From the NCBI RefSeq assembly GCF_000014005.1, contig NC_008009.1:3286001-3350000 (forward strand): 64,000 nt of DNA. Direction: 5' to 3'. A model generated the notes under the pieces. The model had not been told where the DNA came from. It searched no databases and saw nothing but the letters and a program-made list of their open reading frames with translations. Of this stretch, positions 14,823-54,437 are shown one piece after another. The stretch comes from Candidatus Koribacter versatilis Ellin345. Its GTDB lineage: Bacteria; Acidobacteriota; Terriglobia; Terriglobales; Acidobacteriaceae. Position numbers and translations under genes: made by a program. Each line of letters opens with the position of its first letter. Within the stretch, counting starts at the first letter, position 1.

Positions 14823-15719
14823 GTGTCCCGCCGATTGTTTTATACCGACCATTACACCCTTCCCTTGCCTGAGGGACACCGGTTTCCGATTTCAAAATAC
14901 AAATTGCTGCGCGAGATGTTGGAGCGCGATTCGCTCTTTGAGTTTGTCCCGGCACCGCTGGCTAAGCCGGAGGTGATTGCACTCGTGCATGACGCTGCCT
15001 ACGTTGAACAATTTGTTCAGGGGGAGTTGAGTGCGCAGGCGATGCGGAGGATTGGGTTTCCGTGGTCGCCGGAGTTGGTGAAGCGGACACTCGGATCGGT
15101 GGGCGGAACGTTGAGTGCGGGGATGGATGCGTTGAGCTCAGGATTCGGTGGGACGCTGGCAGGTGGGACGCATCACGCCTTCCGTAGCGAAGGCTCTGGC
15201 TATTGCGTCTTCAACGATATCGCCATCGCCATTCTCTACCTGCGAAGCAAAGGCCTCGCTCAGCGCGCTGCCGTGATCGATCTCGACGTGCACCAGGGCG
15301 ATGGCACAGCGCAGATATTTCAGAACGATGCGTTGGTACTGACGATCTCAGTCCATAGCCGAGCGAATTTTCCGTTTCGCAAGCAGGTGAGCAAGATCGA
15401 CATCGAGTTGGAAGACGCAACGCACGATGACGAGTATTTGAACGTTGTTGATGGGTTGTTGCCGCGGGTGGCGGATTTCAAACCCGAGATTTTGTTCTAT
15501 CAATCAGGCGTGGATGGGTTGGCGACGGATTCGCTGGGGAGATTGGCATTGACCCACGCAGGTTTAAAAGAGCGCGACCGCCGCGTGTGCACCTTCGCGC
15601 GCAGCTTCGGCGTGCCGCTGGTCATCACGCTCGGCGGCGGCTACTCGCTCCCCATCGAGCATACCGTCACCGCCCACGCCAACACTTTCCGCACCGCAGC
15701 GGATGTTTTTGTCGTGTGA
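14823..15719 (+). CDS. Histone deacetylase-family protein (AcuC/APAH-like)
   Basis: This 298-residue protein, GTG start at 14823 (VSRRLFYTDHYTLPLPEGHRFP), has the zinc-hydrolase signatures: GGTHHAFRSEGSGYCVFNDIA with the tandem His, IDLDVHQGDGTA with the metal Asp/His, and LGGGYS near the C-terminus. Bacterial members deacetylate small acetyl-amines or proteins such as acetyl-CoA synthetase; the substrate here is unknown. The frame extends upstream into the DUF695 gene, but the conserved N-terminal strand RLFYTDHY begins right after the GTG. Confidence 0.9.
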   Translation: MSRRLFYTDHYTLPLPEGHRFPISKYKLLREMLERDSLFEFVPAPLAKPEVIALVHDAAYVEQFVQGELSAQAMRRIGFPWSPELVKRTLGSVGGTLSAGMDALSSGFGGTLAGGTHHAFRSEGSGYCVFNDIAIAILYLRSKGLAQRAAVIDLDVHQGDGTAQIFQNDALVLTISVHSRANFPFRKQVSKIDIELEDATHDDEYLNVVDGLLPRVADFKPEILFYQSGVDGLATDSLGRLALTHAGLKERDRRVCTFARSFGVPLVITLGGGYSLPIEHTVTAHANTFRTAADVFVV

Positions 15720-15870
15720 CGAACTTCACACGGAGCTGTGTTGCAGATCACTTACTTCGTGACACGACCCAGATATTTTGCAAGTGTGGAGTATTTCCGG
15801 TAAATAGCTCTGGTCTTTGACAATCTTCCGCGGCCAGCCCGCGACACCGCTGGCACTTCCGTCAGTGCTT

Positions 15871-15916
15871 CCTCGTCATTGCGAGGAGCGCGGAAGCCCG
15901 ACGTGGCAATCTCCTG
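15871..15916. repeat. Dispersed intergenic repeat (cgtcattgcgaggagcg type)
   Basis: The sequence cgtcattgcgaggagcg followed by ggcaatctcctg is a widespread extragenic repeat motif in many bacterial genomes. It carries no gene here. Confidence 0.5.
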
Positions 15917-15960
15917 TCCGCAGGCAGCGCCGAAATGCGCGCTAACTCTCACGCGCTCAA

Positions 15961-16060
15961 ATATTTACCTCTAAGTACCTTTAGAAAGTAATATTTACGA
16001 GATTTCCACAGCCTAAGTTGCTGAAAACAAAATATAGGGGGGAGGGGGTACCCCCTCCCT
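15961..16060 (-). repeat. 100-bp 3'-end element, copy A
   Basis: The region contains ttacctctaagt, tttagaaag, ctaagttgctgaaaacaaaa and a 20-bp palindrome gggagggggtaccccctccc (16040-16059). It matches the reverse complement of 53809-53908 over its whole length with about three quarters identity by eye. The palindrome starts 6 bp beyond the lpdA stop, as it does beyond the peroxiredoxin stop in the other copy, and may serve as a terminator. Confidence 0.7.
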
Positions 16061-16065
16061 AAAAC

Positions 16066-17490
16066 CTATTTCCGCTTCGGACGGTAGATGTGGGTGGATT
16101 GTCCGTAGAAGACTTCCGCCGCTTCCATGATCGTCTCCGACAAGGTCGGATGCGGATGGATGCTGAGCTTGATGTCGCCTGCTAGGGCACCCATCTCGAT
16201 GGCGACCACGCCTTCGGCGATCATTTCACCAGCGCCCGGGCCACAGATGCCGACACCTAACACGCGCTCAGTTTGCGGGTCGATGATGAGCTTGGTGAGG
16301 CCCTCGGTGCGGTCGATGGTGACGGCTCGACCGCTGGCAGCCCAGGGGAATTTCGTGACCGTGACTTCGCGGCCTTCGTTTTGAGCCTGAGTTTCGGTGA
16401 GGCCGGCCCACGCAATTTCTGGGTCGGTGAAAACGACAGCCGGAATGGCTTGCGGTTCGAAGGCGACTTTATGGCCGGCGATGGATTCGACGGCGACGAG
16501 ACCTTCGTGTGAGGCCTTGTGCGCGAGCATCGGTTCGCCGACGACGTCGCCGATGGCGTAGATGAATGGATCGTCGGTCATGAGCGACGGGTTCACCTGG
16601 AGGAAGCCCTTCTGGTTCACCTTGACGCGCGTCTTGTCGAGGCCGGGGATCTGCGAGTTCGGCTTGCGCCCGACGGAGACGAGGACGCGATCGTAGGTCT
16701 GCTCTTCTTCTTTGCCGTCCTGCGTTTTGAATTTCACCTTCACGGCACTGCCAGTGTCGGCAATGCTGATGACGGTGGTGTTGAGCATGATGGCTTCGAA
16801 GATGCCAGTGAGGCGCTTGTGCAGCGGGGCAACGAGATCGCGATCCGCACCGGGAAGCAATCCAGCCGTCATTTCCACGACGCTGACCTTGCTGCCGATG
16901 GCCGCATAGACGGAGCCGAGTTCGAGCCCGATGTAGCCGCCGCCGACTACCAGCAGGCGCTTGGGAATGTCTTCGAGGTTGAGCGCGCCAGTGGAATCCA
17001 TCACGCGCGGTGAGCCGATGTTGAACGCCGGTATGACCGCGGGGCGGGAGCCGGTGGCGAGAATGAGCTTATCGAAGTGCAGCGTCTCTTCACCGCCTGC
17101 GGTCTTCTCGACCTTGACGGTGCAGGAGTCGACGAGCGTGGCTTTGCCCTGGATGTAGGTGACCTTGCGTTGCTTCGAGAGCTGGCCGAGTCCGCCAGTG
17201 AGCTTCTTGACCACGCCTTCCTTGAAGGTGCGCAGGCGCTCGAGGTCGATCTTCGGCGCGTCGTAGGTGACGCCCCAGTTCGTGGAGTGCTTGGCTTCTT
17301 CGATCAACTTGGCGACATGGAGGAGCGCCTTCGACGGGATGCAGCCGCGGTAGAGGCAGACGCCGCCGGGGTTGAGTTCCATGTCGATGAGGGTGACGGT
17401 CATGCCGAGGTCGGCGGCGAGGAACGCAGCGGCATAACCGCCGGGGCCGCCACCGATGACAGCGATGTTGGGAGTTTTCTGGTCGGCCAT
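16066..17490 (-). CDS. lpdA: Dihydrolipoyl dehydrogenase (E3)
   Basis: This 474-residue flavoenzyme reoxidises dihydrolipoamide of the pyruvate dehydrogenase complex with NAD. The FAD motif is GGGPGGYAAA (13-22), the redox disulfide is C45/C50 in GGVCLYRGCIPSKALL, the NAD motif is VVGGGYIGLELG, and the C-terminal dimer motif with catalytic His is HPHPTLSE. ATG 17490 is chosen because gaggaa lies nine bases upstream; an in-frame TTG at 17508 is less likely. It is the last gene of aceE-aceF-lpdA, 14 bp after aceF. Confidence 0.95.
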   Translation of the reverse strand: MADQKTPNIAVIGGGPGGYAAAFLAADLGMTVTLIDMELNPGGVCLYRGCIPSKALLHVAKLIEEAKHSTNWGVTYDAPKIDLERLRTFKEGVVKKLTGGLGQLSKQRKVTYIQGKATLVDSCTVKVEKTAGGEETLHFDKLILATGSRPAVIPAFNIGSPRVMDSTGALNLEDIPKRLLVVGGGYIGLELGSVYAAIGSKVSVVEMTAGLLPGADRDLVAPLHKRLTGIFEAIMLNTTVISIADTGSAVKVKFKTQDGKEEEQTYDRVLVSVGRKPNSQIPGLDKTRVKVNQKGFLQVNPSLMTDDPFIYAIGDVVGEPMLAHKASHEGLVAVESIAGHKVAFEPQAIPAVVFTDPEIAWAGLTETQAQNEGREVTVTKFPWAASGRAVTIDRTEGLTKLIIDPQTERVLGVGICGPGAGEMIAEGVVAIEMGALAGDIKLSIHPHPTLSETIMEAAEVFYGQSTHIYRPKRK

Positions 17491-17504
17491 TTCGATCTGG
17501 TTCC

Positions 17505-19352
17505 TCAACCTTGCAGGAGCAGCAGCACCGGTTGTTCGAGCGCGTCAGCGACCCAGCGAAGGTAGCGGGCGGCGTCGGCACCATCAATGATGCGGTGGTC
17601 GTAGCTGAGCGAGAGCGGGAGCATCGTCCGGGGCTCGAAGTGATCGTTGACCCACACGGGCTCAGTGCGTCCGCGCGAGAGGCCCAGGATGGCAACCTCG
17701 GGGAGGTTCACGATCGGCGTGAATGATGTGCCGCCAATGCCACCGAGGTTGGTGATGGTGAAGGTGCCACCTTCCATCTCTTCCGGCTTGAGCTTGCGTT
17801 CGCGCGCGCGCTTCGAGAGTTCGTTCATCTCGGCCGCGATCTGATAGACGTTTTTCTGGTCCACGTTGCGAAGTACGGGAACGAGGAGTCCGGCTTCAGT
17901 GTCAACGGCGACGCCGATGTGCACGTACTTCTTATAGATAATTTCTTCGCGATCGATATCGATGGACGCGTTGAACTTGGGGAACTTCTTCATCGCGGCA
18001 GCAATGACTTTGAGCGCGATGGCCGTGACTGTGAGCTTGCCACCCGCGGCTTCGGCTTGCTTCGCGAACTTCTCGCGCAGCTTTTCGAGCTCGGTGATAT
18101 CAGCGCGGTCGTGCTGAGTAACGTGCGGGATGGTGGTCCAGGCCTGCGTGAGACGCTCAGCAGTTTTGCGCCGAATGCTGCGCATCTGCTCTTTCTCGAT
18201 CGAGCCCCACTTGCTGAAGTCGGGGAGCACGACCTTGGGAGCGGCCTTCGCGGTAGCGGCTTCGTGCTGGAGGCGCACGATCAGTTGCTTTGCGAAGAGC
18301 TTTACATCCCCTTCGCTGATGCGTCCGCCGGGACCGGTTCCCTTCACCTGCACGATGTCGACGCCGATTTCGCGAGCGAGACGGCGTACCGTGGGCGACG
18401 CGGCGACAGTGGGACGGCCCGGCGTCAGTGGCGTGAGAGAGACCCGCACGCCAAGATCACGAACGTCGGGCGGATGCGCCTCGCGTTCGGTTTTGCCTTC
18501 GCTGCGCAGAGCGAGTTCGAACTGAAGGCGAGCAAGTTGCTGTCCGCTGAGTTCGAAGTCGCGAGCAGCGGTCGCGGAAGAAGATCCACCGCCGCCAGTG
18601 GGCGGCTGTGGATTGCCTTCGGTGTTGGAGTGCGGATGCGGGGGCTGAGTATTGCCTTCCGTGTTCGAGGAAGCGCCGCCGCCGGTGGGCGGTTGCGTGT
18701 TGCCCTCGGTGTTGGTGTGTGGATGTGGCGGCTGGGTGTTACCCTCGGTGGTTTCGACGGTGAAGATCGTTTGGCCAACGCCGATCTTGTCGCCTTCCTT
18801 CACATGCACTTCTTTGATGGTGCCGGTCAATGTGGCGGGAACTTCGATGACAGCTTTGTCGGTTTCAAGTTCGAGGATCGGTTGGCCGTCGCTGACACTC
18901 GCACCTTGCTTAGCGATGATGCGGACGAGCTGGCCTTGCTTTATGTTCTCGCCTAGTTCCGGAAGCTTGAACTCGATCGTTTGTTTTGTGCCGGTGCTCG
19001 CGGCAGGTTTTGCAGCAGAAGGCGCAGCTTGCTTGGGTGCTTCAGCCTTAGGCTCGGCCTTGGGTTTGTCTTCGGTCTTTGCAGGAGCCGCGGGCTGCAC
19101 CGGGGCGGCGGCCGCGCCGTCGCCATAGGTGAAGATGATGGCGCCGACTTTCAGCTTCTGGCCTTTTTGGACTTTGACTTCCTGTACCTTGCCGCTGACG
19201 GTGGAAGGAACTTCGATGACGGCCTTGTCCGTCTCGAGTTCGATCACAGGCTGGCCTTCCTTGACGGTGTCGCCGGGCTTCACCATCACACGAACCAGGT
19301 CGCCGCTGGCAATATTCTCACCCAGTTCGGGGAGTTTAAATTCCTGTGCCAC
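17505..19352 (-). CDS. aceF: Dihydrolipoamide acetyltransferase (E2) of pyruvate dehydrogenase
   Basis: This 615-residue protein, GTG start with aaagga upstream, transfers acetyl groups to CoA. It has two lipoyl domains with lipoyl lysines K43 and K166 (ETDKAVIEVP in both), an Ala/Pro/Lys linker (79-122), an odd repetitive Pro/Gly/His linker (about 201-259), a peripheral-subunit binding domain (about 316-356, VRRLAREIGVD and GTGPGGRI) and the catalytic domain with DHRIIDGADAARYL near the C-terminus. It lies 12 bp after aceE and 14 bp before lpdA. Confidence 0.95.
   Translation of the reverse strand: MAQEFKLPELGENIASGDLVRVMVKPGDTVKEGQPVIELETDKAVIEVPSTVSGKVQEVKVQKGQKLKVGAIIFTYGDGAAAAPVQPAAPAKTEDKPKAEPKAEAPKQAAPSAAKPAASTGTKQTIEFKLPELGENIKQGQLVRIIAKQGASVSDGQPILELETDKAVIEVPATLTGTIKEVHVKEGDKIGVGQTIFTVETTEGNTQPPHPHTNTEGNTQPPTGGGASSNTEGNTQPPHPHSNTEGNPQPPTGGGGSSSATAARDFELSGQQLARLQFELALRSEGKTEREAHPPDVRDLGVRVSLTPLTPGRPTVAASPTVRRLAREIGVDIVQVKGTGPGGRISEGDVKLFAKQLIVRLQHEAATAKAAPKVVLPDFSKWGSIEKEQMRSIRRKTAERLTQAWTTIPHVTQHDRADITELEKLREKFAKQAEAAGGKLTVTAIALKVIAAAMKKFPKFNASIDIDREEIIYKKYVHIGVAVDTEAGLLVPVLRNVDQKNVYQIAAEMNELSKRARERKLKPEEMEGGTFTITNLGGIGGTSFTPIVNLPEVAILGLSRGRTEPVWVNDHFEPRTMLPLSLSYDHRIIDGADAARYLRWVADALEQPVLLLLQG
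18576..18752 (-). repeat. In-frame minisatellite encoding the E2 linker
   Basis: Codons 201-259 of aceF alternate two related units: (N/T)TEGNTQPPHPH and NTEGN(T/P)QPPTGGG, in an A-B-A-B order. The DNA shows the same alternation. It preserves the frame and inserts a flexible segment between the second lipoyl domain and the binding domain. Confidence 0.85.
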
Positions 19353-53272: not shown

Positions 53273-53794
53273 ATGAAATTTCGCAAAGCTCTTTTGATTG
53301 GCGCGCTGGCGCTGGTACCCCTGGCGCTATCGGCCAAAGTTGAAGTAGGACAGCCGGCCCCGGATTTCACGCTCACCTCGCAGGACGGCAACCAGGTTTC
53401 GCTGAGCCAGTTCAAGGGGCACTGGGTTGTGCTGTACTTCTATCCGAAGGACTTCACCAGTGGCTGCACGGTCGAGGCGCATAAATTCCAAGACGACCAG
53501 GACAAGTACAAAGCGCTGGATGCTGCGATTGTCGGCGTCAGCGTGGATACGGCGGATTCGCACAAGCAGTTCTGCACAAAAGAAGGCCTGACCTTCAAGC
53601 TGCTTGCCGATCCGACGGCAAAGGTTCCGGCAGAGTACGACTCGATCATGGAGTATCAAGGCACGAAGCTGGCCGCGCGCCACACGTTCCTGATTGATCC
53701 GAGCGGCAAGGTGGTCAAGTCGTACATGGAAGTGAATCCGAAGAACCACAGCGAGCAGGTTCTGGCGGATCTCGCGTCCCTGCAAAAGAAGTAG
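53273..53794 (+). CDS. Exported peroxiredoxin, BCP/AhpC-TSA family
   Basis: This 173-residue protein starts with a signal peptide (MKFRKALLIGALALVPLALSA), unusual for bacterioferritin-comigratory-type peroxiredoxins which are mostly cytosolic. Signatures: VGQPAPDFTLTSQDGN, peroxidatic Cys in FTSGCTVEAHKF, a second Cys in KQFCTKEGL and ADPTAKVPAEY. It would detoxify peroxides in the periplasm. ggagg lies 7 bases before ATG 53273. A copy of the 100-bp 3'-end element follows. Confidence 0.9.
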   Translation: MKFRKALLIGALALVPLALSAKVEVGQPAPDFTLTSQDGNQVSLSQFKGHWVVLYFYPKDFTSGCTVEAHKFQDDQDKYKALDAAIVGVSVDTADSHKQFCTKEGLTFKLLADPTAKVPAEYDSIMEYQGTKLAARHTFLIDPSGKVVKSYMEVNPKNHSEQVLADLASLQKK

Positions 53795-53808: not shown

Positions 53809-53908
53809 GGGAGGGGGTACCCCCCTCCCCCCTCTCTTGTGTTTTCAGCAACTTAGAGTATGCAATCTCTGCAAATTCCTCTTTCTAAATACACTTAGAG
53901 GTAAATTC
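53809..53908 (+). repeat. 100-bp 3'-end element, copy B
   Basis: This is the reverse-complement counterpart of 15961-16060. It starts with the palindrome gggagggggtacccccctccc 14 bp after the peroxiredoxin stop and continues through gttttcagcaacttag to cttagaggtaaattc. Relative to the preceding gene it has the same orientation as copy A, with the GC palindrome first and the AT-rich part next. Confidence 0.7.
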
Positions 53909-53981
53909 CTCTCGGCGTAGCAGTTCGCTCGTGTTTTCGAGCCTTTTCCGCGCGTTATCAGATATTAAAAGCAAAATCCTT

Positions 53982-54089
53982 AACCACGAAGGACACGAAG
54001 GAATTTGGAGATATAGGGATTCGAATTCGTGGGAATTTCCGGGCGAAAGTGCGTGAAAAATGCGAGATGGGTGCGAATTCTTCGTGGTT
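53982..54089. repeat. Dispersed repeat with aaccacgaag inverted ends
   Basis: aaccacgaagg at 53982 is matched by cttcgtggtt at 54080-54089, over 108 bp. The wording aaccacgaaggacacgaagg is a common extragenic repeat in many bacterial genomes. From 54090 to 54437 no gene or further structure is seen. Confidence 0.5.
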
Positions 54090-54437
54090 TCGGCGGCAAC
54101 ATTCGCGGATTCGGGGAGGAATTTGCTGCCCCGAATAAAACAGCAGATCCCACGTCGGGCTGACGCCCTCCTCTGGATGACAAGAGGCGGCAGTGGAAAT
54201 GCGGGCTGCGGTGCTAGCTGGCTGCTTCGATTTTCAAAGAACTTCTGTTGTTGGCTGGGAGTGGCCCACTTGCGCATGGTAGCTGAGTCGTGGTGCGACT
54301 TATGTGACCGACGACACTTCTGGCTGTGTTGCTCGTCACGTATGCGCGTCGTCGCCTGGTAACTTCGGTATTTTCAGAATGGGACACAGAAGTGAACTAT
54401 GCACTGACAATCACAACGCCCGACTGGATAGTAGAAG

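Follow-up and report, generated by a model that had tools for sequence, protein, structure and literature searches.

A dispersed promoter-bearing repeat unit of Terriglobales and its association with a zinc-cluster protein family

A 100-bp element that occurs twice in a 64,000-nt stretch of the Candidatus Koribacter versatilis Ellin345 chromosome (NC_008009.1, positions 3,286,001 to 3,350,000; hereafter the window) is the distal end of a longer, dispersed, promoter-bearing and mostly non-coding unit. Sequence comparisons showed a tight association of the unit with a single protein family, which holds across an order. The initial annotation had described the element as a pair of sequences behind two unrelated genes, and the observations on the pair itself held: window positions 15961-16060 (+) and the reverse complement of 53809-53908 aligned end to end (81 % identity, E=1.5e-18, blastn), with the same orientation to the gene at both sites. 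The palindromes lie, as described, within 15 bp of stop codons, 6 bp from that of an lpdA-like gene and 14 bp from that of a peroxiredoxin gene; gene calls were made with a custom hexamer script, so that individual gene distances may be off. The element is real, yet it is only the distal part of the unit, the features of which are listed in Table 1. Unit 1 sits between the stops of a gene at 14835-15719 (+) and the lpdA-like gene at 16066-17508 (-), unit 2 faces the peroxiredoxin gene at 53273-53794 (+) from its 3' side, and the promoter module is present in both (15715-15825 and 54341-54229). The label "CRP-like" for the dyads we take to denote resemblance only.

Table 1 Features of the two units in the window
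Feature	Sequence	Coordinates	Strand	Basis
Unit 1, whole, promoter module to palindrome end		15715..16059	+	R3 match 15715-15824, R1 match 15942-16055, motif positions
Unit 1 CRP-like dyad	TGTGACGAACTTCACA	15715..15730	+	A6 alignment; the TGA inside serves as stop codon of the preceding gene
Unit 1 second dyad-like site	GTGTTGCAGATCAC	15738..15751	+	conserved columns, A6 alignment
Unit 1 putative -10-like hexamer	TATTTT	15774..15779	+	aligned TAnnnTG columns, A6; inferred
Unit 1 short hairpin site	consensus GTGGGGCATTCCC	15786..15798	+	A6 alignment
Unit 1 boxA-like site	GGTCTTTGACAATC	15812..15825	+	invariant TCTTTGA in A6
Unit 1 repeat u1		15943..15968	+	A2 alignment
Unit 1 repeat u2		15969..15999	+	A2 alignment
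Unit 1 repeat u3 core	CCTAAGTTGCTGAAAACA	16012..16029	+	A2 alignment
Unit 1 G-tract	GGGGGGAGGGGG	16037..16048	+	motif position
Unit 1 palindrome	GGGAGGGGGTACCCCCTCCC	16040..16059	+	motif position
Unit 2, whole		53809..54341	-	R3 match 54230-54340, R1 match 53812-53927, motif positions
Unit 2 CRP-like dyad	ACGTGACGAGCAACACA	54325..54341	-	A6 alignment
Unit 2 second dyad-like site	GTGTCGTCGGTCACA	54303..54317	-	A6 alignment
Unit 2 hairpin site	GTGGGCCACTCCCA	54256..54269	-	A6 alignment
Unit 2 boxA-like site	GTTCTTTGAAAATC	54229..54242	-	A6 alignment
Unit 2 repeat u1		53901..53926	-	A2 alignment
Unit 2 repeat u2		53871..53900	-	A2 alignment
Unit 2 repeat u3 core		53840..53857	-	A2 alignment
Unit 2 G-tract	GGGGGGAGGGGGG	53820..53832	-	motif position
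Unit 2 palindrome	GGGAGGGGGGTACCCCCTCCC	53809..53829	-	motif position

Sixty-three matches at E<=0.1, 62 of them at E<=0.001, were obtained in the window's own genome (G000, a 5,650,368-bp chromosome in one contig) with R1, a sequence-only profile built from 26 copies, and blastn gave 23 non-self matches with E<2e-4. The repeat family is thus real, dispersed and far above chance level. Relatives presented 72 (G001), 37 (G007), 24 (G022) and 15 (G008) R1 matches at E<=0.1. Read on the strand that has the G-tract last, the leader orientation, each copy has three direct repeats, u1, u2 and u3, of the pattern TAA(C/G)TCCTTTGnnnnCAAnATTTTGC, with spacings of about 30 and 42 bp that are close to whole helical turns. 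Downstream of u3 follows GGGGGG(A)GGGGG, often continued by TACCCCC, and the closure is often GGGGGTACCCCC. The C/G tract is the constant part; the palindrome shared by both window copies lacks its second half in many others. By a simple regular expression, the 60 listed copies of the 63, on which the analyses of placement and type were made, fell into the types TTCCTC (20), ATTTGA (11) and ATNTTC (29, including one copy initially scored as 'other'). RNAalifold found no conserved RNA pairs in the A2 (G000) and A5 (genus g33) alignments, and a search of the window and 20 loci against Rfam placed no family on the units. The other Rfam matches in these loci were a tRNA (L093) and Acido-Lenti-1 (RF01687), the latter antisense over the 3' end of a zinc-cluster gene (L102 2696-2741, -). 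No match for the element was present in plasmid records, nor for the unit in phage records. Integron attC sites, judged by their usual core consensus, were dropped as a candidate, since the attC core sequences were by eye unconserved across the copies.

The complete unit measured 182-552 bp with a median of 307 bp (47 copies of G000) and comprises, in leader orientation, two CRP-like dyads with a promoter, a hairpin with a boxA-like site after it, a middle of variable sequence, u1-u3 and the G-tract. Upstream of u1 the G000 module consists of a GTGAnnnnnnTCAC-like dyad, a second dyad, a promoter-like TAnnnTG site, the hairpin GTGGGGCATTCCC and G(C/T)TCTTTGA(A/C)A; from these motifs we infer that the module is a promoter and that the units are transcribed. 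A strict regular expression detected the boxA-like site in 33 of the 60 copies. Its position soon past the promoter resembles the boxA leaders of rRNA and suhB, for which PMC5725501 gives the consensus GYTCTTTAANA; the likeness is one of sequence only, as the site of the units is one base off this gamma-proteobacterial consensus and has no clear counterpart in genus g33.

R3, a profile of the promoter module trained on 29 modules upstream of repeats, matched 59 times in G000, 38 times in G001 and not at all in G009, a relative without zinc-cluster gene. Fifty-six of the 59 G000 modules lie 10-473 bp upstream of a same-strand repeat, and 56 of 61 repeats (the 60 listed and one read by eye) have a module; random placement paired a mean of 0.4 and a maximum of 4 (2000 trials). 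This coupling is partly circular for the 29 training modules, and since R3 was trained on modules near repeats, more weight attaches to how seldom it matched away from repeats and to the pairs that played no part in training. The three unpaired modules stood before a degenerate element (L360), an ordinary ORF (L361) and a terminator-like hairpin (L362). At L361 (G000:4698430-4698540, -), promoter and boxA-like site precede the ORF without any repeat element. In G001, 29 of 38 modules paired with a listed element, 14 of the 72 elements there being unlisted, and several of the other nine modules lie at contig ends. The anatomy of the unit and a near one-to-one coupling of module and repeat were thereby shown at the level of sequence.

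The middle of the unit is variable and not conserved. Other intergenic repeat families fill the middle of units or trail them (TTGTCATCCAGAGGAGGGC..GACGTGGGATCTGCTGTT, CAGGGCAGCGCTTCAGCGCTGCC, CAGTTGCAG..CTGCAACTG and CACAGAGACACGGAGG), with instances at window positions 15869-15915 and 54110-54180, L102 1620-1990 and L023 470-1220; ahead of zinc-cluster genes, two of these families are arranged as tandem arrays of about 93 and 137 bp. At L131 (about 1350-1520, G000:959364) a G-tract, GGGGGAGGGGGTACCC, stands immediately 5' of an ATG with a terminator-like hairpin ahead, without module or three full repeats, in a layout like that of genus g33.

Six of the listed G000 elements stand at the starts of related small-protein genes. 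The encoded proteins share a zinc cluster, C-x9-C-x10-C-x2-H, and a helical core (LPxLED...LLYxLQTA). All seven zinc-cluster genes of G000 have a repeat upstream, six by R1 matches and the diverged seventh by eye, and so have four of the five in G001 (by eye); about 54 of the 61 G000 copies are leaders without a gene ('solo'). Across the phylum the family was present in 18 of 247 genomes, all from the window's own family; among 41 near relatives, 13 had such genes. Scanning public genomes yielded 51 loci, five of them the G001 loci, in Acidobacteriaceae MAGs, Ca. Sulfotelmatobacter, Edaphobacter and other Terriglobia. Forty-five were usable (five had no start found, one a too short upstream region), and in 31 of these the 200 nt upstream contained a G-tract, compared with 4 of 70 control genes (p=4e-13); most of the displayed leaders had TAA...TTTG...ATTTT repeats ahead of the G-tract. 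Among the seven G000 genes, the similarity of the leaders followed that of the proteins with a Spearman coefficient of 0.76 (21 pairs, non-independent). Sequence thus showed a match of repeat type to protein subfamily.

Gene and repeat also co-occurred between genomes. With R1 at E<=0.001, 12 of 41 relatives had both, one the gene only, one the repeat only and 27 neither (p=2e-8; within the family alone p=3e-5). The gene-only genome, G016, had five weaker R1 matches; the repeat-only genome was G015. For R2, a second repeat model, 22 copies from a different genus (g33) were used; four genomes gave 66, 72, 62 and 79 matches to it, and among 30 genomes it matched in 13 of the 18 that have the gene and in 2 of the 12 that lack it (p=0.008). 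The matches without gene were five in G208 and one in G239; G232, G111, G158, G176 and G012 had the gene and no R2 match. Gene presence follows phylogeny and the Fisher tests disregard shared descent.

Pfam and NCBIfam models recognised no catalytic or tyrosine transposase domain in the zinc-cluster protein, thus it possibly moves nothing. The only Pfam zinc-finger matches, zf-primase and DUF5763, were sub-threshold, with a best zf-primase (PF09329) score of 19.8 bits against a gathering cut-off of 28.8, and the best PDB sequence match was the MCM10 zinc finger (E=0.14). In the AlphaFold model of 197 residues (mean pLDDT 82.7), the N-terminal 100 residues are confident, and the MCM10 finger matched residues 4-43 (Z 4.7, 40 residues, 28 % identity). 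Foldseek returned nothing at E<=0.001 from the PDB and viral models, the VIA rows of Z 6 are confined to about 50 residues of helix, and no match to the protein was present in plasmid records. The cluster shares three Cys and one His with the MCM10/primase finger, but all scores stay below the curated cut-off and the helical remainder is without clear relative; a nucleic-acid-binding finger is plausible.

The fairly probable explanation, and the one we favour, is a repeat-plus-protein system resembling REP/RAYT, in which the element forms the downstream end of a leader unit and the partner is no recognisable transposase. The master form of the unit would be the leader of the zinc-cluster protein genes, transcribed from its own module, and the protein, with its faintly MCM10/primase-like finger and helical core, would bind the direct repeats. 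By analogy to REP and RAYT, the units may have spread through the genome under the influence of this protein. As in REP/RAYT, each genome has tens of copies scattered outside genes, and a dedicated protein family goes with them, the repeat standing here at the border of its genes; repeat type varies with protein subfamily, and gene and repeat occur together across genomes. According to PMC2817692, RAYT genes are flanked by two repeats in inverted orientation. In contrast, the Terriglobales repeat lies on one side of the gene: no inverted second element was seen by eye within 150 nt beyond the stops of 27 zinc-cluster genes, nor an inverted second copy beyond the gene in a self-blastn of six G000 loci. 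Among the 27 genes, L160 and L170 (both G024) have a same-orientation G-tract shortly past the stop rather than before the start. The unit, unlike REP, is made of three direct repeats and no short palindrome, it has its own promoter, and the protein lacks a recognised IS200/IS605-like tyrosine transposase domain. Lacking inverted flanks, tyrosine transposase and palindrome, the units are not classed as REP/RAYT. BOX-type repeats of Streptococcus are likewise modular and intergenic with dozens of copies; in contrast to these, the units have a fixed promoter module, three phased direct repeats, a G-tract and a partner gene family.

The promoter module could instead identify the units as small non-coding RNA genes, with promoter, hairpin and boxA, that act on convergent neighbours or in trans and carry the zinc-cluster gene as a passenger. 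The G000 module with its boxA-like site is in line with this, as is a GTGGCGTA-like promoter motif that was found in G131 upstream of 23 of 31 copies but in none of 31 control windows, and which by eye often precedes a terminator-like hairpin. The lack of an Rfam family on the units, of a conserved fold in the repeat part and of conservation in the middle of the unit, however, makes RNA genes an unlikely explanation.

The initial annotation had proposed a 3' element that follows genes, such as a terminator. On the G-tract side, the neighbouring gene of the G000 copies faces the tract with its 3' end in 34 of 60 cases, but with its 5' end in the other 26, so that this proposal holds for a part of the copies only. 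Among the 47 copies with mapped module, the median distance from the tract was 13.5 nt to a convergent 3' end (28 copies) and 145 nt to a 5' end (19 copies), and three units lie between divergent genes. Four copies, including the first window copy, have the stop codon of the upstream gene at the identical place in the first dyad. In G131 (31 of 66 copies examined), the tract lies towards a 3' end in 17 copies and towards a 5' end in 14; the genes faced include mnmA, pdxT and dxr (names from translation). Placement is therefore not random with respect to gene ends, yet gene starts, above all those of zinc-cluster genes, are used as well; the niche of the units is gene boundaries, of which gene ends are only part. 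A transcription terminator or 3' UTR element, in which tract hairpin and AT-rich part would end the neighbour's message, agrees with the 28 closely spaced convergent copies, with a slightly longer tract hairpin in copies within 20 nt of a stop (median 4 vs 3 bp, p=0.004, 14 vs 40 copies) and with the lpdA orthologue in G001, which has an ordinary terminator-like hairpin at that place instead. The 26 copies facing gene starts, the many copies without palindrome and the absence of RNAalifold pairs in both alignments argue against it, while promoter module and protein family would be left unexplained. The units further differ from intrinsic terminators in having no conserved GC-rich hairpin with U-run and no consensus fold. 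We regard the terminator as a quite unlikely function of the family; in the favoured explanation, the stop-adjacent placement reflects the tolerated intergenic niche, and some copies perhaps also end the transcript of the neighbour.

Mobility, the other initial proposal, would be in line with the differing occupation of gene ends between species. Eighteen stop-adjacent G000 elements were looked up in G001: 13 downstream regions were readable, three with the element (prx, rph and the L030 gene) and ten without, among the latter the lpdA end, and a MiaB-like gene was a fourth occupied end by coordinates; the remaining four gave no match or a contig end. Both genomes thus had the element at four of the 14 orthologous ends that could be judged, and G007 at none of ten ends read. 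Against mobility, all ten chosen sites (of about 18 matches) were occupied in both members of the close pair G131/G200, without sign of recent movement, and no terminal inverted repeats or target-site duplications were seen in the alignments; an empty site was not resolvable between G000 and G001, as the intergenic DNA is too diverged for alignment. In seven of these ten otherwise mostly near-identical pairs (L290-L309), the length of the G-run differs, like in a slippage-prone contingency tract. A non-autonomous MITE-like element, moved by an unrelated transposase with preference for gene boundaries, would account for the dispersed, subfamily-structured copies and the four of 14 shared ends, but is highly improbable, given that no terminal repeats or target duplications were seen in the alignments, and given the tight coupling to one protein family and the sites common to G131 and G200.

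The repeat types of G000 are unevenly distributed: 19 of 20 TTCCTC-type copies lie within 1.33-3.53 Mb, 26 of 29 ATNTTC-type copies outside 1.5-3.5 Mb, and similarity declines with circular distance (Mantel r=-0.215; 999 permutations gave no value this low). GC skew of the scattered loci did not place the replication origin of G000, nor was a DnaA motif seen in its first 5 kb or last 5.9 kb. The position pattern is equally compatible with copying to nearby sites and with domain-specific sites. Chromosome-organising sites, where each repeat type with its own zinc-cluster paralogue would mark a different arc, would agree with this clustering but are a highly improbable explanation, as G131 has no position effect (r=+0.07; 31 of 66 copies, one type, some cut out of register) and copying to nearby sites would look identical.

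A further-reaching and very unlikely reading is a novel type of genome-wide repeat system: zinc-cluster proteins that each recognise their own type of triple repeat, units that are transcribed and boxA-protected, and pairs of paralogue and repeat assigned to arcs, which would serve for addressing or domain marking and not be plain selfish DNA. A search of the open-licence literature found no description of the element or of the zinc-cluster family, which suggests a previously undescribed partnership of repeat and protein. Terriglobales are abundant soil bacteria with little-known molecular genetics. Should the partnership prove real, they would possess a repeat-plus-protein system with up to about 80 loci per genome that has no Rfam match and is apparently unnamed. 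It would stand beside REP/RAYT as a non-transposase example of a repeat population tied to one protein family, and the selfish, regulatory or architectural nature of such populations would become testable.
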